In this document: piece by piece, positions 1 through 25,233 of the stretch
Numbering within the stretch: the stretch's first letter is position 1
Layout: each line of letters starts with the position of its first letter
Source of the DNA: a virus
Direction: 5' to 3' (one strand)
DNA length: 25,233 bases
IMG/VR virus record: IMGVR_UViG_3300020457_000087
Coordinates: 1 to 25,233 of that record
Notes under the pieces: model-generated
Told to the model about the DNA's origin: nothing
Databases searched by the model: none
What the model saw: the letters and a program-made list of their open reading frames with translations, nothing else
Position numbers and translations under genes: made by a program

Positions 1-1412
1 GTTCCAGATCCTATAGAGAGAACTGTTAATCCTGCACCAATAACATTATCGATAGCAGATACAGCAGCACCAACAACGATACCGGTGGTGTTAATACCAA
101 TTACTGCTGTATTAACTCCGATAGTTGCAGATTTAGTGCTTGATTCTATAAAGACTACACGATCTCCTCTTATCTCTTCACCCGGTATGAATCCTGAAAT
201 TGTAGTTCCAATTCCAACATTTGATATTTTAAGAACTTTTGTATCTGCATCCCACTCTTTGACTCTTGCTTGAGTTAGTGATGTTTGACCTGTGATAATA
301 TCATTAAGGAAGAAATTACCACGACCAGTGATAATATTTGGATCACTTATTGTAACTGCTGGTGATAAGGTATATCCAACACCGGGATTTGTAATACGGA
401 AAGATGATAACTGTGTATTACCTATATCAATAACAGCATTCGCTGTAGCAGTGGTTCCTGACCCTGGCCCAGCGATTGTGACTGTCGGGGGTGTTGTATA
501 CCCTGTTCCTTCATCAGTTATGTTAAAGTCGATTACACCTTCTCCAATAGTTGTTATACCACATGTAGCAATTGCACCACTTCCACCACCACCTAGTATT
601 CTAATACTTGGTGCAAATGTATAACCAGATCCAGCGTTGGTTAATAATATTTCTTTAATTGAGAATACACCAGATACAGATGTTGTTATCGCCACAGCTG
701 ATGCGTTTACTCCTCCAGCAACTCTGTTTGTAGATATCGCTACAGTTGGTATGGAAGTATATCCACTTCCATCATTAAGTATAGTGATACCATTTACAAA
801 TCCAGATCCTAAAGTTGCTGTTGCTGTTGCGGTTCTACCTGTACCTACTAAATTAAGCGTTGTTATAAATCCTTGATCCTCTATCTGAGTATCAATCTCA
901 TCAATTGATGTGTCAATGACTTCATCCTCATATTCAAAGAGTTCACATTGTAGTTCATACACATAATTTTTACCAAGTTGATAGAATGGTTTTTCATGTT
1001 CAACAAATTTTACTTCAAATAATCTTTGTCCAAGTGGAAAAAATATTAAATCACCTTCACGAGGTCTTGTTGCTAATTCAAATTCATCATCATTTAAAAA
1101 TGGTGATATAAAATCTTCAAACCTTTCTCTTGATATTGTTAGTGTAACTTCATCTCTTAAACTTACACCAAATTTAGTCATTACATCACCTGCACCTGAA
1201 TATCCTTCATAGGTATTCACATATGCTTCCAATAAAAAATTATCATCAAATTTTGATGATTGTACTTCTTCAATTATTGATTGTTTATTTACAAATTTTC
1301 TAGGAATGTATGTTACTTCAACACCATAAATTTTCAGTTGTTCATTGATTAAATCTTGAACTAACCTTTGTTCACCTTGAGATCCTTGTAGAAAAAACGG
1401 ATTTAAAGCCAT
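1..1412 (-). CDS. 14: Neck protein gp14, 3' partial
   Basis: 470 residues are visible and the frame is open to the window edge. The N-terminal 160 residues match T4 gp14: YGVEVTYIPRKFV, LEAYVNTYEGYSGAGDV with FGVSLRDEVTL, REGDLIFFPLGQRLFEV, and PFYQLGK. T4 gp14 ends at 256 residues; this one continues past 470. The extension holds four GxGYT repeats (residues about 212-356), then ITGQTSLTQARVKEWDADT near 372, FIPGEEIRGDRVVF near 405, and a hydrophobic, Gly-rich stretch up to the edge. The ATG follows gp13 by 5 nt with only a weak GGGTGA Shine-Dalgarno. The neck role is well supported by the N-terminal half and by adjacency to gp13; the role of the extension is unknown. Confidence 0.93.
   Translation of the reverse strand, partial: MALNPFFLQGSQGEQRLVQDLINEQLKIYGVEVTYIPRKFVNKQSIIEEVQSSKFDDNFLLEAYVNTYEGYSGAGDVMTKFGVSLRDEVTLTISRERFEDFISPFLNDDEFELATRPREGDLIFFPLGQRLFEVKFVEHEKPFYQLGKNYVYELQCELFEYEDEVIDTSIDEIDTQIEDQGFITTLNLVGTGRTATATATLGSGFVNGITILNDGSGYTSIPTVAISTNRVAGGVNASAVAITTSVSGVFSIKEILLTNAGSGYTFAPSIRILGGGGSGAIATCGITTIGEGVIDFNITDEGTGYTTPPTVTIAGPGSGTTATANAVIDIGNTQLSSFRITNPGVGYTLSPAVTISDPNIITGRGNFFLNDIITGQTSLTQARVKEWDADTKVLKISNVGIGTTISGFIPGEEIRGDRVVFIESSTKSATIGVNTAVIGINTTGIVVGAAVSAIDNVIGAGLTVLSIGSG
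340..780 (-). repeat. Four tandem GxGYTxxP repeats in gp14
   Basis: Four units of roughly 40-45 residues are centred on GSGYTSIPTVAI, GSGYTFAPSIRI, GTGYTTPPTVTI and GVGYTLSPAVTI. Between them are small-residue strands such as GGGGSGAIAT and GSGTTATANAVI. The codons differ between copies, so the repeats are old rather than a recent DNA expansion. The same module appears in gp8, the DUF4815 protein and the giant protein. Confidence 0.8.
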
Positions 1413-1417
1413 ACATA

Positions 1418-2275
1418 TCACCCAATAAAGTCAAGAGGTGGTAATTCGTATTCCTCTTTTAACTTGGTTAATGCAAATTCTAAGTCTCTTTGACCATCTT
1501 CATATATTTCTCTTCCATTTAATTCCAATCCACCGGGTAATTTAACTCCTCTAAATTTAATTAAATTTTGTCCCCACTGACGTTTCATAATTGCAGTCAA
1601 ATACATCTTAAGAAACATATCATTATAGATTTTTGTAAAATCATCTGGATTTAATATTCTTTGGCAATCAATCACTATAAAATCACCCTCCCTTATAGAA
1701 TTAAAATCCATGTCCAGATATAATCTGTTTTGCTTCTTGTTAAATCTTACTTGTCTTTCAGGTGTCAATAGAAAATCTATATCTTCAAGATAACTTTTTA
1801 CCATTGAATATTGAAGAAGTTCAACAGAGTTAAAGTAATAAAGATCGTTTAAAAATAATTGGTATTTAATACTAAACATACCACCAGATATTGCACTGGT
1901 ATTAAATTTAAATATTTTTTCAATACCTATTACAGAATCAGGTATTTGTATAAAATTGGAATTCTCTACAAAACTAGTTGTAGTAGATCCATAACCACTT
2001 ATGGGAGTTGAAGTTCCTGTCGTTGTTACTATACCTGCAGTATTGGTTGATTCTGCATTAGAAGCAGCTTTACCTCTATCAATTTCATCTTGAGTAAATT
2101 CATGTTTAAGGAACATTTCCTCAACACCATCAAAATGTCTTTCATTAAAATATTGTAATGCATCATCTACTAGATCATCAATTTGATCATCATCAAGATT
2201 TATCTCAAGAACAGGTGCACCTAATTTCCTAAGAGAATAATCTATTAATTGTTGTCTAGTAGCTGGTTTTGACAT
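1418..2275 (-). CDS. 13: Neck protein gp13
   Basis: 285 residues; T4 gp13 has 309. In T4, gp13 and gp14 form the neck that closes the filled head and receives the tail. Shared landmarks are LRKLGAPVLEINLDDDQIDD with LQYFNERHFDG at the N-terminus (T4: LRRLGAPIINVELTPDQI...YHFDG), and LPGGLELNGREIYEDG near the C-terminus, with the end PPLDFIG (T4: LPGGVTVDGQRLIEEA...PPFGILVG). The middle, including a Ser/Thr-rich stretch near residues 75-95, is more variable. Start choice is supported by AAGGAG and TAATG coupling to the coiled-coil gene. The stop lies 5 nt before gp14. Confidence 0.93.
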   Translation of the reverse strand: MSKPATRQQLIDYSLRKLGAPVLEINLDDDQIDDLVDDALQYFNERHFDGVEEMFLKHEFTQDEIDRGKAASNAESTNTAGIVTTTGTSTPISGYGSTTTSFVENSNFIQIPDSVIGIEKIFKFNTSAISGGMFSIKYQLFLNDLYYFNSVELLQYSMVKSYLEDIDFLLTPERQVRFNKKQNRLYLDMDFNSIREGDFIVIDCQRILNPDDFTKIYNDMFLKMYLTAIMKRQWGQNLIKFRGVKLPGGLELNGREIYEDGQRDLEFALTKLKEEYELPPLDFIG

Positions 2276-2487
2276 TATTCTCCTTCAACATCAGAGGCTA
2301 GATTTTCATATTTTTCTTGCCACTCAAGTGCCTGTTGTGCAAGTTTAGTTTTTTCATCATTAAAATCTGTTAAAACAGTTGTCAATTTTGCTTCCAACAG
2401 GATATTTTGATTTGTCAATGCAGCAATTTTTTGATTGTATAATTTAATCAATGTATTCACATCAACATCATTATTTTGATTGTTCAT
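2275..2487 (-). CDS. Small coiled-coil protein upstream of gp13
   Basis: 70 residues, nearly all predicted helix: VNTLIKLYNQKIAALTNQN continuing through LLEAKLTTVL to LAQQALEWQEKYENLA, with Leu/Ile/Ala in heptad positions. It resembles small proteins I recall in front of gp13 in cyanophage genomes; function is unknown. It starts 5 nt after the stop of the fibre-like gene, with a weak GGTGGC Shine-Dalgarno made by that gene's last Gly codons. Its end overlaps the gp13 start by one base (TAATG). A structural adaptor or assembly chaperone would fit size and position, but nothing in the sequence proves it. Confidence 0.75.
   Translation of the reverse strand: MNNQNNDVDVNTLIKLYNQKIAALTNQNILLEAKLTTVLTDFNDEKTKLAQQALEWQEKYENLASDVEGE
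2280..2285 (-). promoter_or_regulatory. Ribosome-binding site for gp13
   Basis: AAGGAG on the minus strand, 4 nt before the gp13 ATG (2275). It lies inside the last codons of the 70-residue gene (GAA GGA GAA TAA). This supports the gp13 start and coupling with its upstream neighbour. Confidence 0.8.
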
Positions 2488-2492
2488 AATTT

Positions 2493-4427
2493 TTAGAATG
2501 AGCCACCATCAATGGTAGTCGTGTACATAGGTTTACTAGTATATGTAGTCGAGACATTAGAAGGTGTTTTACCAGTTGATGCCCCATTTAGTAAAAGTTG
2601 AGCAGAAGTATTAAATGTTCCCTCTACACCAATTAGAGTAACAGATGTTGTGTTTGATGTTGTTTTAACAATACCATTTTGAGATCCACCACCTGCTTGT
2701 CTTACATATTGTCCAGCAACAACACTTAATGCACTTCCTAATGTTAATACAATCTCTGTATTAGTTGTTAGTATTTGTGTTGAAGTAAATGTTGCTGAGC
2801 CTGGTGCATCAGTTGAATTTTGTAAACCAGTGCTATCAAAGTAAACAATACCATGAGTTGCAAAATCACCTGCTTGATAGTAGATACCTTTGATATCTAA
2901 ATTACCTCTTGTTCCTGTTACAACTTCATTAGTAACTGTTGCATCAGGTATATAAGTAAAACTTCTTGCAGGTGCTTGACTATTTTCACCTGTACTATCA
3001 TTATATCCAAAGAAACCAACCTTATTATTTGAAACACCTGATCCAGTGTTATAGTTGAATGAAATACCACGGTCAGTATTTGTATCAAAACCATGAGTGA
3101 TTGTTAACTGAGTTGTAGTTACAATTCCAGCAGTTGTTTGTGCAGATAATCGAATTGTACCAATTCCAGTTCCACTCGCAGGTGGAATGAATGAATGAAC
3201 AGTTGTACTACCGGGAATCGATGAACTACCAGTAACAACGTCACCTGTATTAATACCAACAACTGAATCTACAACTACAAGTGTTGTACCAGATCCAACT
3301 GTGGTGACAACAGTTCTTTTACTGGTTACATCACCAACACGCATGATAGCATCATTGACGGTTGCAGATGTTGAGTTAACCTGAGTTGTTGTACCATCAA
3401 CCTGCAAGTCACCTTTAATGATAACTGTACCTTCATTACTTAATCCAGATGGGAATGGGTCAATGAATAGTTGATTACCACCACCTGCTTGAGTTTGAAT
3501 GATATTAGATGATATACCAATATTTCCTACTTCTACTTCACCTTGTACGATGATTCCGTTTGATTTAGTCTCTAGTTTCTTAGCTCCATTATGATATAAC
3601 TCAACTGAGCCACCATCAGTAAATTTTGCTTGAACTGCATTATCAGCAGCATTTTTTATTTGAACTAAACTACCTGTAATATCAAGTCCACCAGTTCCAA
3701 CATCTTTTATCTTACTATTGGCTCCATCATGAAATATTCTTAAATCAAGGTCATCACCAAACTGTGCCTCTACATTGTCAGGAAAATGTGCGTTTTGACT
3801 GAAGGTAATACCACCACCAACAAAAAACTTACCTCCAACAAAGAGGTTTTTCTCAATACCAACACCACCCTCTACTATAAGTGCACCAGTATCTTTGTTT
3901 GTTGCTTGCGTTGTAACGTTAATCCTTACGTCTGCACCTGTAAAGGTTAACTGATCTGTGCCATTTTCATCATACTCTATCTGAGCATCTGAACTTCCAG
4001 CATCACCTTGAGCACCAGCACCAAACGCTAATTTAGTATCGTCGGGTATTCTTACCTCACCAGTGCCATTTGGATTAACAATTACGTGTCCATCAGTATC
4101 AGTTGATGAGAATGTATTACCATCTAATGTTAAATTATCTACATTCCACTCATCTACTTTTCTGTTTTGATCCAGAATAGCAACAAATCCATTAGCAGCA
4201 GTTGTCGGGTTTGCCTGACTAGCGACTTTACCGGGTTCTATACTCAATAAGTCGGTGTAATATCGACCACCAACTATTCGTGGGTTATCTCCAGAATCAC
4301 CAGCAAACAGTCGTCCACCGAAATTACCGTGCGTTCCGACTCCAACGGTTAAACCTAATTCACCGAAATTAAGAGTTCCGGGTTGTGCTATACCCGTCGA
4401 TCTTTTAACTCGTATTATACTGGCCAT
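2493..4427 (-). CDS. Fibre-like virion structural protein
   Basis: 644 residues. The N-terminus (IRVKRSTG, then PGTLNFGELGLTVG and GGRLFAGD) is a recurrent start in marine T4-like phage structural proteins, probably a virion-attachment domain. Downstream are typical fibre modules: DTGALIVEGGVGIEKNLFVG near residues 180-200, FGDDLDLRIFHDGANSKIKD near 222-242, VELYHNGAKKLETKSNG near 275-292, and a DGTTTQVNST unit near 345. The rest is Thr/Ser/Val-rich beta sequence ending in IDGGSF. It sits just upstream of gp13, where T4 has the whisker gene wac (fibritin), so a whisker or tail-fibre role is possible. No heptad coiled-coil like that of fibritin is visible, which argues against a direct homologue. 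The ATG abuts the preceding TAA and has a good Shine-Dalgarno. Confidence 0.85.
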   Translation of the reverse strand: MASIIRVKRSTGIAQPGTLNFGELGLTVGVGTHGNFGGRLFAGDSGDNPRIVGGRYYTDLLSIEPGKVASQANPTTAANGFVAILDQNRKVDEWNVDNLTLDGNTFSSTDTDGHVIVNPNGTGEVRIPDDTKLAFGAGAQGDAGSSDAQIEYDENGTDQLTFTGADVRINVTTQATNKDTGALIVEGGVGIEKNLFVGGKFFVGGGITFSQNAHFPDNVEAQFGDDLDLRIFHDGANSKIKDVGTGGLDITGSLVQIKNAADNAVQAKFTDGGSVELYHNGAKKLETKSNGIIVQGEVEVGNIGISSNIIQTQAGGGNQLFIDPFPSGLSNEGTVIIKGDLQVDGTTTQVNSTSATVNDAIMRVGDVTSKRTVVTTVGSGTTLVVVDSVVGINTGDVVTGSSSIPGSTTVHSFIPPASGTGIGTIRLSAQTTAGIVTTTQLTITHGFDTNTDRGISFNYNTGSGVSNNKVGFFGYNDSTGENSQAPARSFTYIPDATVTNEVVTGTRGNLDIKGIYYQAGDFATHGIVYFDSTGLQNSTDAPGSATFTSTQILTTNTEIVLTLGSALSVVAGQYVRQAGGGSQNGIVKTTSNTTSVTLIGVEGTFNTSAQLLLNGASTGKTPSNVSTTYTSKPMYTTTIDGGSF

Positions 4428-12582: not shown

Positions 12583-14148
12583 TTAGAATTCCAGAATAAT
12601 TTTAATGTCTTCTTTTTGTCTTGCACCTCTTGAAATAGTCGCTCTATTATCAATGTACAATAAATCACCTGACCCTTTATTTATTTCAGGAGAAGCAAGA
12701 CCACTTGTGAACGAAACTCCGAGAGCAACGTTCGCATTGTTTACAGTTGTAATACCTGCACTAAAAGTAGTTTCAACAGTCCCTGAACCACCACTGTAAG
12801 CGATAGGTCTATTTGTTGACTCGAAAGGTATTCTACCAGCTTTTTGATCAACAGATAAGAAATCTGTTTGATCAAGACCATTTTCAAAATAAAGTGATCT
12901 ATCTTGAATATATTTCAATACTTTAGTATCAGCATCAAATGAAGCGATATATCCAACAGCTGTATTTCCTACACCAGTTGTCTGTTCAATTTGTGTTCCT
13001 ACAGTAGGTGTTCCAGTAAAAGTATCCAATTTTACTGCTTTTACTGATGAGAACGAGTTACCTGTATAGATTGATGTAGTTCCAAATGATGTAGGATTTT
13101 TAATAAGTGAAACTTGTGCAATTTTAGCATCAATTGGAAAATCCTTTGTAGAATCATCAAATCTAGCGTAAATTAATACTCTATCAGCACCTAATTCCTT
13201 ATACAAATCAAATCCATGACCTTTAGATGGAGGGATGATAGGAATTAACTTAGCAGGAGTGCTATTAGTCAAAGCATCACTGTTAATGGATGATAAATCA
13301 ACCATTCCGTAAGTATAACCTTTACCACCATTAGAAATTGTTGTATCAACTATTTTACCACCAGATATATCAACAACTACTTTTGCACCAGATCCATCAC
13401 CAATAATATCAAATTCACCACCAGTTCCTGTATAGTTGGCACCTTGTTGATCAATATAAACAGTTTTTATTTGATTATTGTTTATATCTGAGTCACCATT
13501 TTCACGTACAGATTGAATCTGTGCGTCAATAGAAGTAGGCCAATCATTTGGAAGAGCAATAAATTCGGTTGAGTCAAACTTAATAATATCACTTGGATTT
13601 ACTGTAAATAAAAATTTCCAAACATATCCATCTTGACTTTGACCAGCTGCTGATGGTTCTAAATCAGTAAATATCGGTTGATCCTCTGATGAATTTCCTG
13701 TAGTATTAATTCCTGATGATCCATTTTCAATACAAATATAAACATTAAAGTTTTCATTCATCACATAATAATTTGAATCATATAATCTATTTGCTTTTGC
13801 ATTAGGTGATTTATTACCATCACTGTAGTCATGACGGTACATGTCATATTTAATACCCTTTGTCCAATCTATTCTTCTGACTAATCTCCTTACGTTTGTA
13901 GATGTAACTCTTTTACCAAACGTGGTGGTATCACCGATATGATTGACATTGTTTATATTATCAACAGGGTTAGGTGTTGCTGTATTCCAATTATCATCTC
14001 TACCAAATGCATTGACTCCACCTACTTTTTGTGCTGTTGGATTAGGTAAACCCACACAAACGTAGAACGAATTTGTTGTAGAAGATACTCCTGCAACAAA
14101 ATTACTTGCATTTAATATTCTGAACTGGTCTGTAACTATTGCTGGCAT
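12583..14148 (-). CDS. 8: Baseplate wedge protein gp8
   Basis: 521 residues. In T4, gp8 forms a dimer in the baseplate wedge and joins gp7, gp10 and gp6. Shared landmarks with T4 gp8 are AIVTDQFRILNASNFV at the N-terminus (T4: AIVTSKFR...LNFYNS), RRIDW around residue 92, QDGYVWKFLF around residue 173 (T4: GDGYVWEYLF), and a hydrophobic C-terminus IKIILEF (T4: INILFTF). It is about 190 residues longer than T4 gp8 (334). The extra material lies largely in the middle and includes a GANYT...GKGYT beta-repeat at about residues 235-280, a module also found in neighbouring genes. The start at 14148 places the conserved motif at the N-terminus and follows a late promoter box. The stop is 3 nt before the next gene. 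Confidence 0.92.
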   Translation of the reverse strand: MPAIVTDQFRILNASNFVAGVSSTTNSFYVCVGLPNPTAQKVGGVNAFGRDDNWNTATPNPVDNINNVNHIGDTTTFGKRVTSTNVRRLVRRIDWTKGIKYDMYRHDYSDGNKSPNAKANRLYDSNYYVMNENFNVYICIENGSSGINTTGNSSEDQPIFTDLEPSAAGQSQDGYVWKFLFTVNPSDIIKFDSTEFIALPNDWPTSIDAQIQSVRENGDSDINNNQIKTVYIDQQGANYTGTGGEFDIIGDGSGAKVVVDISGGKIVDTTISNGGKGYTYGMVDLSSINSDALTNSTPAKLIPIIPPSKGHGFDLYKELGADRVLIYARFDDSTKDFPIDAKIAQVSLIKNPTSFGTTSIYTGNSFSSVKAVKLDTFTGTPTVGTQIEQTTGVGNTAVGYIASFDADTKVLKYIQDRSLYFENGLDQTDFLSVDQKAGRIPFESTNRPIAYSGGSGTVETTFSAGITTVNNANVALGVSFTSGLASPEINKGSGDLLYIDNRATISRGARQKEDIKIILEF

Positions 14149-14187: not shown

Positions 14188-17100
14188 TCATGTATGTTTC
14201 TTCCTTAATGCACCTGTATTACGGATACCAAACACCCTTCTTTGAATTGTTGGGAAGGTTGAAATACCCAATCCCTCACCGGAAATTACTGTATTACCAG
14301 TCACTCCTATTGCAATTGGATTTCCCCTATTAATTGAGGAAGTATTGTTGAATAGATAACCCCATGAGAACTTACCCCTTGGTCTTTGTCTTACAAAGAT
14401 CTTACCATTCATACTTGCATGAGGTGTTGTGCAATAATATACGAATGATGTATGTCCAACTCCAGCTGTGTTAAATGTAAGAGTTCCATTTGATAGGTTA
14501 TTGTTTGTAACTCCCTGAGCTCCAGTTAACGCTGCCCCACCATATGTTCTTGCTATTCTTATTGGATGAGCTCCGATGGCACTAACAATACTTAATACAT
14601 CACCTTCATCAAGATAGATTGTGCCATTTACCGCATTAGATAACCCAACCTGTGTACCTTGTTCATCTCTGTGCGATCCATTTAAAACATAATTACTTGA
14701 TCCATTATTAGTAAATGTAATACTAAATGGTAAATTTGCTCTTGCTAAATTAATTCCAGATGTATTAGTATTAGAATGAACATTAACTTCAATCTCTGCC
14801 TTATTTGAGTGTCTATTAATATTTTTAATGATGTAGATATTATCAACGAATGTTCTACCAATACCAACTATATCATTATTATTACCACTTTCATTCAAAC
14901 TAGTGATACCGTGACCAACCACCGTATTTGAAATGTAAATTGGCATAGTTGGAAGTAATTGAGTAAATGCTTGACCTGAAGCTGCCTCTAATCCAAATCT
15001 CAACGCTGTAGTGGATCCGATTGTTATATTAGAAATTCCAGTAATTATTCCAGAAAATCCTCTAACATCAGTTATTTCAGATATAATTTCATCAACCACT
15101 GTTGGTGAATCAACTAAAACATTAGGTGATGCGTTTATTGTATTTGTAACTATTCCACTTGTAGAATCAGAAGTTGCAGTATCACTTAATAATTTTATAG
15201 ATCCAGTATATCCAGCACCTGCATTTGTTATATTAATAGATGAAATAGATCCATTAGTGATAGTTGCAGTCGCTGTTGCTGTTGTTCCACCACTAACAAC
15301 TGAAATAGGTGGATTTGCAATCTTAATAGTTGGTGCGATTGTATAACCTGCTCCTGCATTCACTGTGGTTATTCCTGATATTGTACCTGCTGCAGATACT
15401 GTTGCAGTAAATTGAGCAGTAATTGGTTGTGTATTATTAACTATTAGGGCAGAAAAATCTATACTGGTTACTGCAGCATCTTCATCCTTTTCATATTCAA
15501 AGAAATCTGAATCATCAACGTAAATTCTGTCTGTAGAAACACCAATATCTCCTATTATTTTAGCTGTTGGAAATACAAGTGGTTCAATTGAATCTCTGGC
15601 TTTAGAGACTAAAATACCATTAACAACTCTATCAACCTTTTGTTTTGTCCAACTAACTGGTTTTTTGACAGAATTATCATTTATACCAACACCTGTATAA
15701 AGAACAGTTTCTACAGTATCAGTGGTTGTAATACCAGCAACAATTCTTTTATCTTGTTGTCTATCAATAATTTTTCTTGTATTTACATTTGTTAAATTGC
15801 TTGTATCATTATTTGCTAGAAGTTGAATTAAATCACCATCTTTTACTGTTTCTTTTGATAAAATTTCCTGAATGTCTTCATTAGAAGTACCTTTATAGAA
15901 AAATATTGAAATTACATCATCAGGATCTGGTGCAGTGGTAAAGTTAAATGTTGTTCCACCTTCAAAAGTATATGCCTCACCGGGTTCTTGCAATACATTG
16001 TTTACGTATATTACAAGTAAATTATTCATGTCAATCAGTTGAGAATCAACTGAATCACCAACATCAAAACTTAATAATGCTTGATTTTTTCTTAATGGGA
16101 ATCTTGTCCTTTGCCCATCCTGTAATCTATCAATTGGATCAATGAAATCAAATTCACCAAAGTCCCATGAAGAAAATCTATCAGTAAATGTTTCAGTAAC
16201 TTCTAATACGAAATCTTCTAGAACAGCACCTGTGGCTGTTACAAGACCAACTGGTTTAAATTTATCACCAACTTTAAAATCATGTCCGGGTCTTGTTATT
16301 TTGAATGAATTAATTGTAAATAATGTTGATCCGATACCAACTGTTGAACTAGCTCCAACACTTAATGATACTAGAAGTCCACTTCCACTTTCTGTTGTTG
16401 ATCCAAGACCTCTTCTTGATACACCAACAATTTCCATATTATCATATGACGGTTGTGGGAATTGGAATCTAGGATTCACATAATTAGTTCCTGCTGCTCC
16501 GATGTTTATATCTAAAGTTCCACCAACACCAATGTTTCCAGTTGCTGATGCACCAGTTCCTGCTCCTCCACCAAATCCAATGAAGGCAGTAATTGTATTT
16601 GTGGTTACAGCAGTGATGATAGTTGCTATACCAGCGATTGGATCAGGAAGTCCTGTAGTTTTTGAAATAGCACGAGGATAAGCATGATCTGATTGGAAGT
16701 TATCTCTAGAGCACTTGAATACGATACCTCCAGTATCAATACCAACAAAATTACCTACTGATAATCCATGAGATGCAATTGTTAATTCTAATAATCCTGT
16801 TTCTGATGTATATACTGCGTTTGTTGCAGTTCTTTGAGTAGCAGCAAATATATTATTACCATTAGCATTTGTTCTGATAGAACCCACACCTGCACTTACA
16901 AATCGATGTTCATACGCTAAATCAGTTATTCCAATAGCAACTGTCCCACCAACAGGCCTATAACCAGATCCAAATGTTAATGTTTCTGGTGGTCTAGATG
17001 GTGATACTGATTGATTATAAATTGTAGATCCTATACCTACAGCAGTTATTTCACCAAATTGACTAAGAATCGCTGTAACAGCAGCACCTACTAAAGGAGC

Positions 17101-20100
17101 AACACCAATACCACCAGATGAACCAACTGATATAATTTTTCCACCTCTAGGAAGTTGATTCTGATTTACATCAACATCACTGACAACTTTTTCATTTGTA
17201 CCCTCAGATGTTATTCCTGAAAATACTATATTTTGAGCAGTTGTTCCAACACCAACAAAACTGTAATTGTTGTTTAAATTATTTTCAGTTGTTGGTTTTT
17301 GGAAAATACCATTAATCAATACCAGTGTGCTTCCAGTGGCAATACCTGTTACATTATTACCTTCCTTTCTCATTCTAAATGTTGCACCGACACCTGTAAA
17401 CTCATTTGATATATCATCAAAGATTCTATTATTGGTATATGTTTTTCTTAGATATACCCTTCCTTGGAAATCTGATCTAGGTGTTGGTAAATTAGATGAT
17501 GTTTTTGCTAAATTATTAGTTCCTCTAGGTGGATCAGTAAAATGAGCTGTGTTTTCTACAATATTGAATGAACCTGAGAATATTCTACCTGCAACACCAT
17601 TATTATGGATAGCTGGTTGAGTTCCTAATTTTCCTCTTTCAATATCTAACAAGAAATATGTTCCTATACCTGTTATGGGCCCTACAGTGGTAGTTCCTAT
17701 TCCCACAGACACAATTTTCATAAATTCATTTCCAAATTTAATATTATCTTCATTTCTTATGGATGATATCCCTGACACACTAATAGTAGTGGTTGTTGAT
17801 GAAATATTTCCACCAACATTATGTTGTAAATTAGTTGTTATCGGTGTAAATGCTATAGGAGATTGTATTAAATTATCGACAACTAATACACTCTTCTCTA
17901 ATTTCTTCTTCATTTCAAGTTGATGTGCATTTCCTGAACCAACAGTTATGAATGTGAGAACAGATCCACCAACACTTGCAGATATTGTAAATGAGTCATT
18001 ATCAATCTTATTAACAAAAACAGTTGATGGCACATTTGTATTATGTGCAGTTGTCATTGCACTAGCTGCAACACCCACAAAAGTAGATTTTGGAGTGTAA
18101 GTTAATTCTTCATTATCTGAGAAGAAATGATTAGGTATCGTAAATACACCAGTGGACGTATTAATACCAGTTCCTGTTGTAGGATTAAATGTTTTAACAA
18201 AAATTGGAATATTATCAGATTTTAGATCAAAATTGGTTTTGTTTGCTCTTGTTCCATTAACAGCGTTATATTGGAAAACACTTATTGATTCATTTACTCT
18301 ACCATATCCTAAATTTGGAGGTTGATTTTGTATATCAATATCAGTATACAGAATTTCACTTACGTGTTGAATATGATGTTTTCCTGTGCCACTATCAGGA
18401 TGGAATTTTAATACAAAATTAGATGATGTGAGATTAGCAGAAAATGTTCCAATACCTGATGTGCTTCCAATAGAGATGAATGGATAGTGAACTGTATGTG
18501 TATCTGTGCCATCATGAATTGCCACAACTTGATGTATGGCATGTGTTGCTCCTGCACCAACAGCAGTGCCAAGACCAACTTTAACAATACTCTTAATTGC
18601 ACTAAATCGATTTGAATCAACTCCAACAACATTAGAAATTGCTGAACTTTGAACAGAAGAAATACCTGTTTGAATTATAAAAGATCTTTCAGATCCGTCT
18701 GGTTGACCAGCATTCTTAAATCTAAATGTTCCTGGCCCACCTAGAGTGTTAAATCCAACTACTTTAGCACTAACTTGAATATCAGTGACACCAGCTCCAA
18801 CAGACGATGAATTATCAAAATCAAGACTTAAAATATTATTTGCGATTCTTGATCTAAATGATCCAATAAAGTTTGACGATACACCACCTTGTGTAGATGT
18901 ATCAGCATAATATTCACTGAAATATGAATCTGTTCCATCATGAGAGACGTAAATATCAACATGGTTCTTTTCACCATTTGAGATGTTTAACACCTCCATA
19001 GTGGCATAGAACGCACTTACATCGGTTGTGGATCCAAAAGCAATTCTTTCAGAAGTAGATCCAATACCCACTACTGTTGAAATACCAATTAAATCAACTG
19101 ACCCTATAGCCTGAGTTCCACTTTTTAATCTTTCTGAATTAAATACGTTTTTAATAATTTTGACATCAACATCATCATTATTAGGATCATTAGGTCGAAT
19201 AACTAAATTAGTGTTACCATTTACAGTTTCACCCTCCAATGTTGTTATAGTTGATGCAGAGGATACACTATTCTTTTCAAATGTAAATGTATCAGTATTA
19301 TCTTTAAATATGACAATTTCATCTAATTGTATTGCACCTGTAGAAATATTTCTACTTTGAACCAAAAATCTATTAAAATTATCATTGACGGGTATTTCTA
19401 ATTTACCAGATAAATTAGCATCACTATTGGAGAATAAAGAACTTATATCATCAATTTTTAAAACTCTATTAGTATTACACTGTACAAAGTTTGCTAATTT
19501 TGTTCTTGAAAACTTGACGAACTTAGATTTAGTTCCATTATCTGTTGTATCAATATCCTCACCATCATCAAAATTATTAATTGTATCAACTCTTTGCTCC
19601 GTAATTATATCAGCAGATACAACTGTGGCATTTGATGAACTAATACCAGCTTTAGCACTTGAGGATATTCCAACATCTGCAAAATTTTTCAATCCACTTG
19701 TATGAATTAGACGATTGACAGGATCAATTATTTCATCAAATGTCTTTGTGCTTTGAACTGTATATGAGAGATTTTGATAATAATCATTATCAGATAAGAC
19801 CATGAAATCTTCACTCAATCTTCCTATTTCATCATTCCATCCTTTTGTTTTTCTGAGAGAATAATCAATATTAAATACACCTTTATTATTTTTTAAAGTA
19901 TTAATTGTTGCAACTGTTCCTGAATTTTCTCCTCTTACTTTATCACCAACTTTAATATCAAATGATCCTTCTACTTTAATAAATTCATCAGCACGGTTAT
20001 CTATAACTGTTAAATCTGTTTTAATAAACTTACTATTTTTTTCAACAGCTAAATTTTCGCCAGTTCTAAACTCTGATGATTTTTGAACAACATCAAACTC

Positions 20101-23100
20101 AGGATAATCTTCAAATTTTATTATTGTAGCAAAGTTTGGAACTGTTTCAGCAACTCCGGGATTTGTAGCGGTGCTAGGTAACTCAAATTTAACTATCGCT
20201 GGATCAGTGTTATTGTACTCGACAACATTAAAGAATACGAATCCATTATCAGATGAATTAAAACCATCACCAGTAGTAGAGGTATTTCCTATGTTTTCAA
20301 CAAATACTTTTTCACCAGTTGTAAATTGTGGAGTTGCAAAACCATTAATCGGTGTTTTTAATGTACAAGTTACTATTCCACTATTACTACTCTGTATATC
20401 TGTTATTTTATAACCATTAGAATTATTAATCGTTCTAATAATTTGTTTATTGTTAGTTAAACCTCTTGGAGACTCTAATATTTCAACAGAAGAAATTGAA
20501 CTAGCAGTCAAATTAAGTTGAATTATACCTTGATCACTTGTCAGTTTACCAGTATCTGGATCAACAACCACTAAATCTGGAGCTGTAAGATACTTATCAC
20601 CTCCTTTTAATATTGATACGTCTAATATTGAATCAGAATTAATTAAAGTCACAGTTGGTGATAATCTAGCTTCAGGTTTTAATGTCTTATCTGAGTGATA
20701 ATCAAAACCGGGATCTGTGATTCGTACAGTGTTTATTTTATTAATATTATCAGACAAACAAAGTATACTTGCGTTAACACCATTTGTGGATCTTACACTT
20801 GATACACTAGGAACACTTACATATCCAAATCCACCTGATGTTAAATTAATTTTACTGATTCCGCCCGATGCATTTTTAGATGCAGTGTCATATGTTATTG
20901 ATGACGATGCACCAACTGTATATGAATTTTCCTCTGGAATTTTATTTAATGAGATATCAAAAGTACTTGTAGTAATACCAAAAATTGAATATAATCCATT
21001 ATACTCACTATCAATGTAACTTAATTTTGATGGATTAATAACATCAGGATCAGATGTACTAATAAATCCAGTTTTTTCGAGTGTATAGAATAATTCTTTT
21101 GGATTTTGATCGTGATAATTTAATGTGACAAATGATTCAGTGCCAACTCCTGATAAACCAGTTCTTATAACACCAAAATCAGTGGTTGCACCAGCTGATA
21201 CGAATTCATTTTTAAACTGAGAATCAAAATAGAAATTAAGTTGATAACCTAATAAAGATGAATCGGATACGTAGAATTTTAAATTATTGTTTTTTGTAAT
21301 TGATAAAGGTGGATTTATTAATGATAATTCTTGATTATTACCTCCAGTATTAGTAGTAATACCAACAACTTTGGGTGGTTCATTTTGCACATCATATAAA
21401 GTCTCCGCTAATTGGAACGTATCATCATCAATACGATATACAAAATATGATCTTTCAGATGTTAGACCTGTTGCTGTTGCTCCACTTGTTATATCATAAA
21501 ATAGTTTTTGTCCAGTTTTAAATCCGTGATTATCCTTGAATATTCTATCGGCACCAATATTAGATTGTGTAATTGTAAGTGGATCAATTAAAAGTTTATC
21601 CTCTAATGATGAATATTTTACGATTACAGATGTTGTTACACCAGTTCCTTTTGTTTGATTAGAAATTACGTTTAAATCTATAACATCATTATTTTTAAGT
21701 TCATGTAAAGATGATCCTGTTGATACTCTTGCAGTTATTCTTTGAACTTTACCTGTAACTTGTGTAAAGTTGGTTTCTAATGAATATTCAAAATTATTTG
21801 AACCGTTATTTTTAAAGAATAAAGGAGTGCCATTTCTTTCTGTTGTTATTCCTATTAAATCTTTTGAAATATTTTTTATGAAAACATTTTGAGTATTTCC
21901 TGTAGAAGGAAGATTAAAACTTCCAGATGCTGATGTCTCATTTCCTGTACCACAAGATATTTGGTTAGCACCACTTGGTCTTGTAAATATTACTTCTTGA
22001 TTGTCTTTGAAAGGGTGATTAGGTATAAAAATACACTTAGTTGGTATAGAAACAATCTCAGATAATTCACCTACTGTAAATGATTTAGCAAGACCAGCGT
22101 TTATGATGTCTGTAGTAACACCTACAATTCCTGCAGTCAATCCAAAGCCAACCTGTTCTTTAGGGTTAAAGAATATCTTTTCATTTCTTCTTGATTCAAA
22201 ATCACCAATATTTGGTGTATCTATGGTGAAGAATTGTGGAATAGTTTGTAATAAACCACCTAATTTATGAGAAGTTGTAGCATCAGTAGGATGAACAATA
22301 CCTCTTTTTACTCTCAAGATACTTCTTTGATCAAATTCATTTAATACTAATAGTTTTTCAGTTCCAATACCTATACTACTACCAACAGAGACAGATTTAG
22401 GTATTTTTGCAACATAAATATCTGTCACAATACCTGCAGTGGTATTGCCTGACATGGCCTTATATAAAACTGTGCTTTCAGAAGAAACTCCAATATTGTG
22501 AGAATTAGTAAGACGAGGTATGCTTGTCGATAAACCTGAGATAGCAACTACATCATTTGTAGTCAAAGTATGTGTGGTGGAAATGAATGCAGATACTGAT
22601 CCCTTCCTTTCTTTTACTAATAATACGTCCTCATAAGTGTCAATTTGGGTGCTGACATTTGAAACTGGTTTTCCTGTAACTCTTGATACTTTTGCAGCTG
22701 CACCGCCACCAGAGGTACCACTATTATCAAAAACTAAAGAGTCTTCAACTTTATAATTATCACCTTTACTTACAATTTGGAATCCATCTACATTTCCCTT
22801 TGTAACAGATTCTACGAAAGAAGTTTGTTGTTTTATTTCATATGACTCAATAACAAAATTATAATTAGAATTTTTGTCAGCAAGTTTATATGGATGTGTA
22901 TTTCTAACAAGATTTGATCCATTAAAATCAAAATTATTTTGATCAATTGTAAAGTTTTCTGGAACAGGATCAGATCTATAAGATTCACCTATAAAGTATG
23001 GAAATTCTGGATTACTTGTTACTGTTGAAATACCAGCAAAATATGCATAAGTTCCATTTGGAAAATCTGGTGTTTTACAGAATCTTCCATTATTTTCATC

Positions 23101-25233
23101 TAAATCTCCAGAATCATTGAATGTATAATCTTCAACAAAATATCCATTTGTAAATGTTGATGAAGTTGGTCTATCAATTACATTTGAAATATCAATTTCA
23201 TAACCGGTTTTTAAATTTTTAATTGTAGAATTATCATCATCTGCGTCAGAGAATCCATATGGCCCATAAATTGGATTACCATCATATGCCCAACCTATTA
23301 TAGGTGAGTGAACTAATGGTGTTGAAGCAACATCACCAAAAGCAGTTTGTATTTTACCTGAATATCCTAAAACAGAATATTGTAAATTTGTATCTGATTC
23401 TCTAAGTAATATTTCATCACCAAATCTTACTATATTATTAACTTGTAATGATCTAATAGATGTATCTAGTATTTGCCCCTGTCCATTTGGAATAATTCTA
23501 AGCGAAGGTGTGACTGTATAACCAATACCTGAATTAATTACTTTAACATCAGTGATCTTACCATCTGATACAATCGCTCTTAATTTACCTCCGATTCCAG
23601 TACCAAGACCCACTACCTCTAAATCAGGAGGTGATGTATAGTCTTTTCCACCAAATCTTACGTCACATGAAATAATTTTACCATCTTTTATTATTGGATT
23701 TAATTCAGCTTTCTCACCATTTAATATTTTAATTAAAGGTTTTTTCTCAAAATTTAATATTTCAGATCCATAACCAGATCCGCCCTCATGTACATATGCA
23801 TCATCAAGGGATCCTCTAATAATTGGTGTTATAACCAATGATTCAGTTCTTGCAACAGCCACTCTTGAATAAACTGCATTTACAGTTACTGATATGGGTT
23901 CAAAGAAAAATTCACTATTAACCGGTGTTGATCCTGATATCCTTACAAATTTTCTTCTTACAAAATTAGAATCAGGGTCTGTAGCACCAATTCCAACGTC
24001 AATTAATTGAAATTTATTATCGTCTAATTTTAAAACACGATAGCGATTAGTTATACCAATTCCGATTGGAGCATCACTTGCATTTCCATTAGATGGTGCA
24101 TATTGAATTAAATCGCCTGTAACAAATCCATGATTTTTAAATTCAATAGCATTTTCTATAGTTGAAATACCAACCGGTTTAACAATTAATTTTCTATTTG
24201 TGTAGTTTGTTCCTGAATCAATAATTTTAACTGATTTAAGATGGTTTCTCTTATTTAATGTTCTAAATGTATGATTTCCTCCTGTATTTTCAACTGTAAA
24301 TCTGACAGTATTGATACCTGCTGCATAATCCTCTGCGGTTTCAAATAATATTACTGAATTATTGTTAACCACTTGTGGGTAGTAAACACCACCATCTGAC
24401 AATGTTCTATTTTGAACAGCGTTATTTGTTGTATGAATACCTGGCTCTGATAATGTTGCGTTAAAAACTATTGTAGATATACCGATTGAACCATGTCCAT
24501 TATTACTATAAACTAATGGATCACCATTTTTTAAGTTATGAGTTCGTTTAAATTCAATGATATCATTAATATGATCAACACCACCACGAGCATTTTTCAG
24601 TCTTCCATCAAATTCAAACTCTCTATATCTCCCAACAACAACTGGTTTTAAAATAGCACCTGATCCATTACCACCAGAGAGTGTTACTGAAAATACCTTA
24701 TCTACATCAAAATTTTGTTGGTCTACCAGAACTTCCTCTAAGTTACCTTTAACTACAGGTTGAACTAAGGCAGTTACTCCAACTCCCGGTGCAGTAATAC
24801 TAATTGTAGGAGGATTAACAACATCAAAGTTTTTTCCTGAATTTAATACATCTAATTTTTCTACAGCACCAAAATAAATTTTATCTAATGATTTATAATT
24901 AACAATCTCAACACCATTAATTAAAATACCAGTAGGCCCTACTTTAGTTTTTGGTGATTTTGATGATTTTATATCGACTTGTGCAGGAAATTTCTTTAGA
25001 ATTTTTTGTGTACCAATTAACTCATTTTTATGTCTTAATAATACAAATTTATGACTACCAGTACCAATACCAGATGCATTCATCTCAATATGAGGTGGTG
25101 CTAAATCGTTATCAGCTACAAGAATGAATGATCTTGATGGATATAGTCTTAAAATTCTTTTTACACCAGAATTATCTGCTAAAACTTTTACATAATATAC
25201 TAAACTTGATGTTAAACCAACAATAGGATCATT
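14188..25233 (-). CDS. Giant virion structural protein in the gp7 (baseplate wedge) position, 5' partial
   Basis: At least 3681 residues are visible. A Met codon lies at 25083, but the frame stays open for 50 more codons to the window edge (reading ...RLYPSRSFILVADNDLAPPH), so the true start lies outside. The stop is TGA at 14190-14188. Directly preceding gp8, it sits where T4 encodes gp7 (1032 residues in T4), so a baseplate-wedge or peripheral baseplate role is inferred from position, not from recognised gp7 sequence. Visible modules, numbered from the window edge: GxGYT-type repeats, a YHYH-type domain (about 642-731), two tandem HDGTD-containing units (about 2060-2300), a module with LLVIYVNNVLQEPG (about 3035-3120) of the type seen in marine-phage fibre proteins, more GxGYT repeats, and a C-terminal cupredoxin-like domain (about 3535-3615). 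The protein is rich in Gly, Thr, Ser, Asn and Ile/Val, as expected of beta-rich fibres. No enzyme active site was recognised. Structural role is fairly sure; gp7 equivalence is tentative. Confidence 0.85.
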   Translation of the reverse strand, partial: NDPIVGLTSSLVYYVKVLADNSGVKRILRLYPSRSFILVADNDLAPPHIEMNASGIGTGSHKFVLLRHKNELIGTQKILKKFPAQVDIKSSKSPKTKVGPTGILINGVEIVNYKSLDKIYFGAVEKLDVLNSGKNFDVVNPPTISITAPGVGVTALVQPVVKGNLEEVLVDQQNFDVDKVFSVTLSGGNGSGAILKPVVVGRYREFEFDGRLKNARGGVDHINDIIEFKRTHNLKNGDPLVYSNNGHGSIGISTIVFNATLSEPGIHTTNNAVQNRTLSDGGVYYPQVVNNNSVILFETAEDYAAGINTVRFTVENTGGNHTFRTLNKRNHLKSVKIIDSGTNYTNRKLIVKPVGISTIENAIEFKNHGFVTGDLIQYAPSNGNASDAPIGIGITNRYRVLKLDDNKFQLIDVGIGATDPDSNFVRRKFVRISGSTPVNSEFFFEPISVTVNAVYSRVAVARTESLVITPIIRGSLDDAYVHEGGSGYGSEILNFEKKPLIKILNGEKAELNPIIKDGKIISCDVRFGGKDYTSPPDLEVVGLGTGIGGKLRAIVSDGKITDVKVINSGIGYTVTPSLRIIPNGQGQILDTSIRSLQVNNIVRFGDEILLRESDTNLQYSVLGYSGKIQTAFGDVASTPLVHSPIIGWAYDGNPIYGPYGFSDADDDNSTIKNLKTGYEIDISNVIDRPTSSTFTNGYFVEDYTFNDSGDLDENNGRFCKTPDFPNGTYAYFAGISTVTSNPEFPYFIGESYRSDPVPENFTIDQNNFDFNGSNLVRNTHPYKLADKNSNYNFVIESYEIKQQTSFVESVTKGNVDGFQIVSKGDNYKVEDSLVFDNSGTSGGGAAAKVSRVTGKPVSNVSTQIDTYEDVLLVKERKGSVSAFISTTHTLTTNDVVAISGLSTSIPRLTNSHNIGVSSESTVLYKAMSGNTTAGIVTDIYVAKIPKSVSVGSSIGIGTEKLLVLNEFDQRSILRVKRGIVHPTDATTSHKLGGLLQTIPQFFTIDTPNIGDFESRRNEKIFFNPKEQVGFGLTAGIVGVTTDIINAGLAKSFTVGELSEIVSIPTKCIFIPNHPFKDNQEVIFTRPSGANQISCGTGNETSASGSFNLPSTGNTQNVFIKNISKDLIGITTERNGTPLFFKNNGSNNFEYSLETNFTQVTGKVQRITARVSTGSSLHELKNNDVIDLNVISNQTKGTGVTTSVIVKYSSLEDKLLIDPLTITQSNIGADRIFKDNHGFKTGQKLFYDITSGATATGLTSERSYFVYRIDDDTFQLAETLYDVQNEPPKVVGITTNTGGNNQELSLINPPLSITKNNNLKFYVSDSSLLGYQLNFYFDSQFKNEFVSAGATTDFGVIRTGLSGVGTESFVTLNYHDQNPKELFYTLEKTGFISTSDPDVINPSKLSYIDSEYNGLYSIFGITTSTFDISLNKIPEENSYTVGASSSITYDTASKNASGGISKINLTSGGFGYVSVPSVSSVRSTNGVNASILCLSDNINKINTVRITDPGFDYHSDKTLKPEARLSPTVTLINSDSILDVSILKGGDKYLTAPDLVVVDPDTGKLTSDQGIIQLNLTASSISSVEILESPRGLTNNKQIIRTINNSNGYKITDIQSSNSGIVTCTLKTPINGFATPQFTTGEKVFVENIGNTSTTGDGFNSSDNGFVFFNVVEYNNTDPAIVKFELPSTATNPGVAETVPNFATIIKFEDYPEFDVVQKSSEFRTGENLAVEKNSKFIKTDLTVIDNRADEFIKVEGSFDIKVGDKVRGENSGTVATINTLKNNKGVFNIDYSLRKTKGWNDEIGRLSEDFMVLSDNDYYQNLSYTVQSTKTFDEIIDPVNRLIHTSGLKNFADVGISSSAKAGISSSNATVVSADIITEQRVDTINNFDDGEDIDTTDNGTKSKFVKFSRTKLANFVQCNTNRVLKIDDISSLFSNSDANLSGKLEIPVNDNFNRFLVQSRNISTGAIQLDEIVIFKDNTDTFTFEKNSVSSASTITTLEGETVNGNTNLVIRPNDPNNDDVDVKIIKNVFNSERLKSGTQAIGSVDLIGISTVVGIGSTSERIAFGSTTDVSAFYATMEVLNISNGEKNHVDIYVSHDGTDSYFSEYYADTSTQGGVSSNFIGSFRSRIANNILSLDFDNSSSVGAGVTDIQVSAKVVGFNTLGGPGTFRFKNAGQPDGSERSFIIQTGISSVQSSAISNVVGVDSNRFSAIKSIVKVGLGTAVGAGATHAIHQVVAIHDGTDTHTVHYPFISIGSTSGIGTFSANLTSSNFVLKFHPDSGTGKHHIQHVSEILYTDIDIQNQPPNLGYGRVNESISVFQYNAVNGTRANKTNFDLKSDNIPIFVKTFNPTTGTGINTSTGVFTIPNHFFSDNEELTYTPKSTFVGVAASAMTTAHNTNVPSTVFVNKIDNDSFTISASVGGSVLTFITVGSGNAHQLEMKKKLEKSVLVVDNLIQSPIAFTPITTNLQHNVGGNISSTTTTISVSGISSIRNEDNIKFGNEFMKIVSVGIGTTTVGPITGIGTYFLLDIERGKLGTQPAIHNNGVAGRIFSGSFNIVENTAHFTDPPRGTNNLAKTSSNLPTPRSDFQGRVYLRKTYTNNRIFDDISNEFTGVGATFRMRKEGNNVTGIATGSTLVLINGIFQKPTTENNLNNNYSFVGVGTTAQNIVFSGITSEGTNEKVVSDVDVNQNQLPRGGKIISVGSSGGIGVAPLVGAAVTAILSQFGEITAVGIGSTIYNQSVSPSRPPETLTFGSGYRPVGGTVAIGITDLAYEHRFVSAGVGSIRTNANGNNIFAATQRTATNAVYTSETGLLELTIASHGLSVGNFVGIDTGGIVFKCSRDNFQSDHAYPRAISKTTGLPDPIAGIATIITAVTTNTITAFIGFGGGAGTGASATGNIGVGGTLDINIGAAGTNYVNPRFQFPQPSYDNMEIVGVSRRGLGSTTESGSGLLVSLSVGASSTVGIGSTLFTINSFKITRPGHDFKVGDKFKPVGLVTATGAVLEDFVLEVTETFTDRFSSWDFGEFDFIDPIDRLQDGQRTRFPLRKNQALLSFDVGDSVDSQLIDMNNLLVIYVNNVLQEPGEAYTFEGGTTFNFTTAPDPDDVISIFFYKGTSNEDIQEILSKETVKDGDLIQLLANNDTSNLTNVNTRKIIDRQQDKRIVAGITTTDTVETVLYTGVGINDNSVKKPVSWTKQKVDRVVNGILVSKARDSIEPLVFPTAKIIGDIGVSTDRIYVDDSDFFEYEKDEDAAVTSIDFSALIVNNTQPITAQFTATVSAAGTISGITTVNAGAGYTIAPTIKIANPPISVVSGGTTATATATITNGSISSINITNAGAGYTGSIKLLSDTATSDSTSGIVTNTINASPNVLVDSPTVVDEIISEITDVRGFSGIITGISNITIGSTTALRFGLEAASGQAFTQLLPTMPIYISNTVVGHGITSLNESGNNNDIVGIGRTFVDNIYIIKNINRHSNKAEIEVNVHSNTNTSGINLARANLPFSITFTNNGSSNYVLNGSHRDEQGTQVGLSNAVNGTIYLDEGDVLSIVSAIGAHPIRIARTYGGAALTGAQGVTNNNLSNGTLTFNTAGVGHTSFVYYCTTPHASMNGKIFVRQRPRGKFSWGYLFNNTSSINRGNPIAIGVTGNTVISGEGLGISTFPTIQRRVFGIRNTGALRKKHT
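14395..14640 (-). other. Cupredoxin-like domain near the C-terminus of the giant protein
   Basis: The translation has GTIYLDEGDVLSIVSAIGAH followed by PIRI, then YYCTTPHASMNGKIFVR. A His (codon 14568-14566) is followed 45 residues later by Cys (14433-14431), then His (14421-14419) and Met (14412-14410), giving H-x44-C-x3-H-x2-M. This is the ligand order of type 1 (blue) copper proteins such as plastocyanin. The G-rich lead-in and the NGKI strand after the Met also fit that fold. Fold assignment is by motif; actual copper binding is inference. Confidence 0.6.
18330..19060 (-). repeat. Two tandem copies of an HDGTD-containing domain in the giant protein
   Basis: Two consecutive units of roughly 100 residues share one plan: a Ser/Ala-rich start, a beta-strand ending in HDGTD (SHDGTDSYFSEY in the first, IHDGTDTHTVHY in the second), a stretch with IGSF or IGTF, then LSLDF or LKFHP. 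The first lies at about 19060-18740 and the second at about 18625-18330. They are divergent, so this looks like an old internal duplication of a beta-sandwich-like unit. Boundaries were judged by eye. Confidence 0.6.
23000..23420 (-). other. YHYH-type domain within the giant protein
   Basis: The translation carries GWAYDGNPIYGPYGF (about 23251-23301), followed after an Asp-rich stretch by LDENNGRFCKTPDFPNGTYA and YF (about 23038-23105). These are the two hallmark blocks I know from YHYH proteins (DGxPIYGPYG, then LDxxNGRxxxTPxxPxGTYxY). The YHYH tetrad itself reads YAYF here, so the histidines of the name motif are missing. The function of the domain is not established; in phages it occurs inside very large tail or baseplate proteins. 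Confidence 0.75.

Follow-up and report, generated by a model that had tools for sequence, protein, structure and literature searches.

The baseplate locus and its gp7-like protein

The window, that is, the whole stretch of 25,233 nucleotides of viral DNA that was analyzed, carries adjacent baseplate genes on its minus strand. The features on which our analysis bears are the following.

12583..14148, minus strand: homologue of the gp8 baseplate wedge protein, the next gene downstream of the gp7-like gene
14188..25233, minus strand: gp7-like baseplate wedge protein (phrog_2885), its 5' end outside the window
about 14374..14736, minus strand: cupredoxin-like domain inserted in the baseplate protein, delimited by an AlphaFold2 model, fold matches, homologues and absence from orthologues
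14566..14568, minus strand: His57, predicted N-terminal copper ligand, in an HP motif just before a strand and aligned with the plastocyanin ligand His
14431..14433, minus strand: Cys102, the predicted thiolate ligand, with which strand 96-102 ends
14419..14421, minus strand: His106, predicted ligand, in the loop after the Cys
14410..14412, minus strand: Met109, the predicted axial ligand, immediately ahead of strand 110-116
23032..23310, minus strand: YHYH domain (PF14240) of the gp7-like protein, a Pfam match

The gp7-like protein is a frame of 3,681 amino acids that is still open where the window ends on the right, and its longest relatives have open frames of about 4,334 to 4,336 amino acids. 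It is matched by phrog_2885, "baseplate wedge subunit," at 2,711 bits. Because this match spans only positions 663 to 3426 of the 4179 in the profile, the N-terminus lies outside the contig. Membership in phrog_2885 follows from the profile match together with the position of the gene directly upstream of gp8. The gp8 homologue itself is matched by PF09215 (39 bits against a cutoff of 25) and by phrog_438 (E value of 6e-154). The isolates nearest to it are T4-like cyanophages, at 54 to 58% identity, and we therefore regard the window as part of the genome of a marine T4-like phage of the cyanophage kind. We looked for psbA in longer relatives of the window and did not find it.

In the YHYH domain of the gp7-like protein (23032-23310, minus strand), YAYF replaces the eponymous YHYH. 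A survey of jumbo phages predicts a zinc site in this domain and does not mention cupredoxins (PMC7824862); since the motif is replaced, that site may be degenerate in the window protein. We also sought T4_gp9_10_N in the window protein. It is absent, and the cupredoxin domain is the only one common to this protein and the gp9-like connector (phrog_677).

Ligand motif, sequence relationships and predicted fold

According to the initial annotation, the baseplate-region protein contains a cupredoxin-like domain in which the ligand set is complete, with copper binding marked as inference. The domain and its ligand set are borne out by the homologues as well as by the predicted fold and the ligand columns. 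The H-x44-C-x3-H-x2-M observation is correct, and the cupredoxin domain is genuine. It lies near the C-terminus of the gp7-like protein and is wider than the span that had been flagged (14395-14640). On the minus strand, the motif corresponds to His57, Cys102, His106 and Met109 in domain numbering, and His57 is invariant in alignment A4; in a separate profile-profile comparison, it aligns with the plastocyanin ligand His. The spacing had been given accurately, but by drawing its comparison with plastocyanin alone the annotation missed the norm of the family, C-x2-H-x2-M, which is that of amicyanin. Relative to this norm, the window copy has one residue more between Cys and His, and HP follows its first ligand in place of the usual HN. 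The window domain has no second Cys, so it does not have the CuA pattern of cytochrome c oxidase II (C-x3-C-x3-H-x2-M). A second copy of the cupredoxin domain was looked for in the window and not found.

The probability that the motif arose by chance in an unrelated beta-rich structural protein is negligible. A repetitive protein of this length (3,631+ residues) would give such a motif room to arise. It has 9 Cys among 3,631 residues, however, and at that frequency the exact motif is expected only about 6e-6 times; 0.35% of shuffles contain a loose pattern, H-x(30-60)-C-x(2-8)-H-x(2-5)-M. Homology had already refuted this candidate, and we exclude it because homologues, predicted fold and ligand columns concur independently.

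Membership in the cupredoxin superfamily is indicated by sequence similarity through the family profile. The window domain on its own gives an E value of only 0.015 in comparison with known cupredoxins, and a Pfam run on it returned no cupredoxin match, such that detection came only via homologues and profiles. The family profile matched plastocyanin (E value of 2.4e-4), nitrite reductase (8e-4) and amicyanins (0.03) in the PDB. When it was aligned with phage PetE using hhalign (E value of 2.2e-5), the H, C, H and M all fell in the PetE ligand columns. Together with the model described below, this alignment places the putative type 1 copper ligands, His...Cys-His-Met, at their canonical positions in the fold. 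PF00127 (Copper-bind) matched 6 of the 10 family members tested, with a best value of 6.8e-5. The plastocyanin cutoff (PF00127/TIGR02656) was not reached by the homologues, at 19.8 versus 21.2 bits, and the window copy gave no match. Similarly, a search of P-SSM2 with PF00127 recovered petE at 4e-19 and the tail domain at 1.8e-4, below the cutoff. Finally, TIGR02657 (amicyanin) weakly matched 5 of the 10 family members, at 15.6 bits versus a cutoff of 110.2, and the window domain alone was also below that cutoff.

AlphaFold2, run on the window domain with 78 homologues, predicted a β-sandwich of nine strands (pLDDT 93.4, pTM 0.87). In the model, His57 lies ahead of strand 59-62, Cys102 closes strand 96-102, and His106 and Met109 occupy the loop before strand 110-116. 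This order, with the Cys at the end of a strand and the His and Met in the next loop, is the cupredoxin arrangement. In a Foldseek search of the PDB, all 50 of the best 50 matches listed were cupredoxin-fold chains (best E value of 1.2e-5), among them copper nitrite reductases, rusticyanin, pseudoazurin, plastocyanin, laccase, cytochrome c oxidase subunit II and nitrous oxide reductase. TM-scores of the window model to solved cupredoxins were moderate (0.41 to 0.58), and the best viral fold matches were cyanophage tail proteins. The predicted topology is thus the Greek-key beta-sandwich of the cupredoxin superfamily.

Distribution, insertion and retention of the ligands

With tblastn, the C-terminal 266 residues of the gp7-like protein gave two kinds of phage match. 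The first kind is the cupredoxin region itself, found in tail spikes, tail fibers and gp9-like connectors of P-SSM2, MA01, S-N03, RB11-B, S-SCSM1 and P-GSP1. Matches between the domain and these phage proteins had E values of 1e-11 to 3e-17 at 35 to 40% identity, and all four residues were kept in each of the 9 distinct copies. In the second kind (S-SKS1, S-SRM01, P-SSM5, Sf-CH8 and AG-345-F15), both flanks match and the middle is missing, for which reason we consider these to be baseplate orthologues without the domain. When the flank alone was scanned, the domain was present in 2 of the best 80 loci. The other 78 have a short linker in its place, which in the nearest of them is a sequence such as GLGVTVGINSGNN. 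The domain occupies the same place in four other contigs, including L003 and L004, which are 85% identical over the domain. Because most baseplate orthologues have a linker between the same flanks, the domain is an insertion in one lineage. The window copy groups in a divergent subfamily with the second tail-spike type of P-SSM2 (L075), with an SH-aLRT value of 97.

Outside the gp7-like protein, the domain forms the C-terminal domain of the gp9-like tail-fiber connector in most T4-like cyanophages, with T4_gp9_10_N at the N-terminus. A query of the gp9 type matched at least 353 phage records, of which 271 were Synechococcus phages, 51 were labeled "Cyanophage," 19 were Prochlorococcus phages and a few were Pelagibacter and Methylophilales phages. 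Among the matches listed, the annotation was mostly "baseplate wedge tail fiber connector" or gp9. Ligand-complete main copies were present in 13 of the 14 gp9-type loci fetched. In S-RIM8 and Syn30, gp9 directly follows a gp7-like gene, and in S-SM1 it directly follows the gene for a large virion structural protein. The gene after gp9 encodes a gp10-like baseplate wedge protein with a YHYH domain and weaker, divergent cupredoxin copies. The initial annotation had expected such a domain to be unusual on a virion. This has to be qualified, given that it is widespread in cyanophage tails (353 records), although undescribed in the literature searched. In a search of open papers, we found no paper linking cupredoxin, plastocyanin-like or blue copper with phage tails. 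The fold and the ligand set are known; on this weak evidence, their occurrence as a family of baseplate modules seems to have no earlier description among the open papers searched.

The domain is also found in tail fibers and in secreted bacterial proteins. Some of the bacterial relatives match PF25489, which is named after a plant protein that we take to carry cytochrome b561. Several further arrangements were observed. Gp9-like connectors ending in a ligand-complete domain lie at L337:1586-2809, L338:1086-2312 and L339:1065-2312, and a gp53 baseplate wedge homologue is fused to a cupredoxin domain at L085:4437-5453. In flavobacterial secreted proteins (L181, L188 and others), the domain comes after Lipoprotein_15 repeats and keeps the four ligands. 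The plastocyanin gene petE and a tail cupredoxin domain are both present in P-SSM2, P-SSM5, RB11-B and S-SCSM1 (L329 to L332).

For the count of ligand conservation, viral copies were gathered by patterns outside the ligand residues, which yielded 59 distinct copies; an earlier viral scan, whose pattern contained Cys, His and Met, was left out. As the initial annotation had anticipated for a genuine site, Cys and His are not freely lost among the homologues: 57 of the 59 copies keep all four ligands, counting as kept the window-type Cys, which sits one residue earlier, and the remaining 2 lose all four jointly, with KSDP and NNNV in their place. In a set of 27 representatives that share less than 80% identity, 25 retain any given ligand, compared with 70% for the median column; for the Cys, the figure is 24 by strict column and 25 with the window-type shifted Cys. 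Bacterial copies keep all four in 74 of 77 cases, in a search whose patterns partly include Cys. A single Cys is present in 144 of 152 copies, and because only 8 of the 152 have a second one, Cys102 does not serve in a disulfide.

Ligand-less copies persist in phage tail proteins (L322, L323 and L171), and in L322 and L171 such a copy stands in tandem, directly before an intact one. Two relatives of a ligand-less copy are likewise without ligands, and in S-B43 the His, Cys and His are lost and the Met is kept. The ligands are lost jointly, and we make no claim as to the number of losses; two independent losses had been considered and were dropped, since the tree, from which S-B43 is absent, permits a single one. 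Ligand-less copies were also predicted to adopt cupredoxin folds (pLDDT 91.9, from an alignment that included ligand-bearing relatives), which suggests that the scaffold has a use apart from metal.

The domain is under purifying selection. In one pairwise Nei-Gojobori estimate, dN/dS was 0.16 for the domain, 0.10 for its core and 0.11 for the flanks. A relic fold, one of the possibilities raised by the initial annotation, is disfavored because of this selection, with dN/dS of about 0.10 over the core, and because of the retention of the ligands.

Predicted metal binding, proposed role and known systems

The cupredoxin domain inserted close to the C-terminus of the gp7-like protein probably binds copper and acts as an exchangeable module on the baseplate surface. 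Specifically, one copper ion would be bound through His57, Cys102, His106 and Met109; the domain would form a rigid, metal-stabilized beta-sandwich, exchangeable among baseplate and fiber proteins; and the exposed sandwich would contact neighboring tail proteins or the host surface. The computational evidence consists of homology, predicted fold, ligand columns, joint retention and loss of the ligands, insertion and purifying selection. From it we infer that the metal is copper, that the domain is exposed on the particle and that it takes part in contacts. Predicted copper binding is well supported. The extra residue in C-x3-H and the replacement of HN by HP could alter the geometry of the metal site, and C-x3-H is not known to us from any mononuclear type 1 site. 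The cytoplasm, in which T4-like virions assemble, contains little free copper, and loading with copper would thus need a step after lysis or a chaperone.

The strongest of the alternatives, though an unlikely one, is that the cupredoxin fold serves for adhesion or spacing alone, in the manner of an Ig-like module, with its four residues kept for packing and with no metal in the virion. Ligand-less copies keep the predicted fold and persist, some of them in tandem with intact copies, and, like Ig-like domains, the module moves between different tail proteins. Packing alone, however, does not predict that the ligands should be lost jointly or that their positions should be among the best-conserved columns (25 of 27 for each, versus a median of 70%). 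A different metal at the site, zinc for example, is also unlikely, as is a structural, non-redox role for copper(I). Several soft metals could be coordinated by a set of one Cys, two His and one Met, and the extra loop residue may change the geometry, but the ligand columns coincide with the copper site of plastocyanin and the axial Met is kept in 57 of 59 copies. Met is seldom a ligand in zinc sites, which counts against zinc in particular.

A redox or sensing role of the domain is possible but unsupported. That the virion bears it as an active redox center, which would pass electrons to or from the host surface or trigger the baseplate in response to redox state, we consider distinctly improbable. 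The full type 1 ligand set is in keeping with such a center, as are the bacterial relatives that match PF25489 with its presumed link to cytochrome b561. Yet an electron-transfer partner was not identified, ligand-less copies are tolerated, and orthologous baseplate proteins work without the insertion. A broader scenario, which we regard as rather improbable, would give T4-like cyanophage virions many type 1 copper centers on baseplate and tail fibers (in gp9, gp10, gp53 and gp7), loaded with copper extracellularly, and an infectivity that depends on copper or redox state via host contact or the triggering of the baseplate.

If copper is bound by the inserted module, some of the most abundant phages of the ocean bear a transition metal at the part that meets the host. 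Infection would then be tied to trace-metal chemistry, with a simple experimental handle in chelation and ligand mutants and with the ligand-less copies as natural controls. Furthermore, our findings give a name that suggests a function to a domain that occurs in at least 353 phage records and is annotated there only as part of a "baseplate wedge tail fiber connector" or of a "hypothetical protein."

Among known systems, the plastocyanin/azurin family (PF00127, including cyanophage petE) has the fold and the four ligand columns in common with the window domain. Plastocyanin, however, is a soluble electron carrier, whereas the window domain is part of a baseplate protein; its ligand loop is C-x3-H-x2-M rather than C-x2-H-x4-M, with HP in place of HN, and it falls below Pfam detection. 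Amicyanin has the C-x2-H-x2-M loop of the domain family, to which the window copy adds its one residue, but family matches to the amicyanin model stay far below the cutoff. The gp9-like connector (phrog_677) carries a homologous domain with the same ligands on a neighboring part of the baseplate. There, the domain is terminal and follows T4_gp9_10_N, while the window copy, from a divergent subfamily, is inserted in a gp7-like protein.

Ig-like domains are described as exchangeable beta-sandwich modules added to phage structural proteins (Fraser et al. 2006, as cited in PMC12051499). The window domain is likewise an exchangeable beta-sandwich, but one with a cupredoxin fold and a set of metal ligands. 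Iron- or zinc-bearing tail parts are known from phage spike tips and PAAR. Like these parts, and like the YHYH domain with its predicted zinc site (PMC7824862), the window domain would place a metal site in the tail, but its fold and ligands are different and the metal predicted for it is copper.
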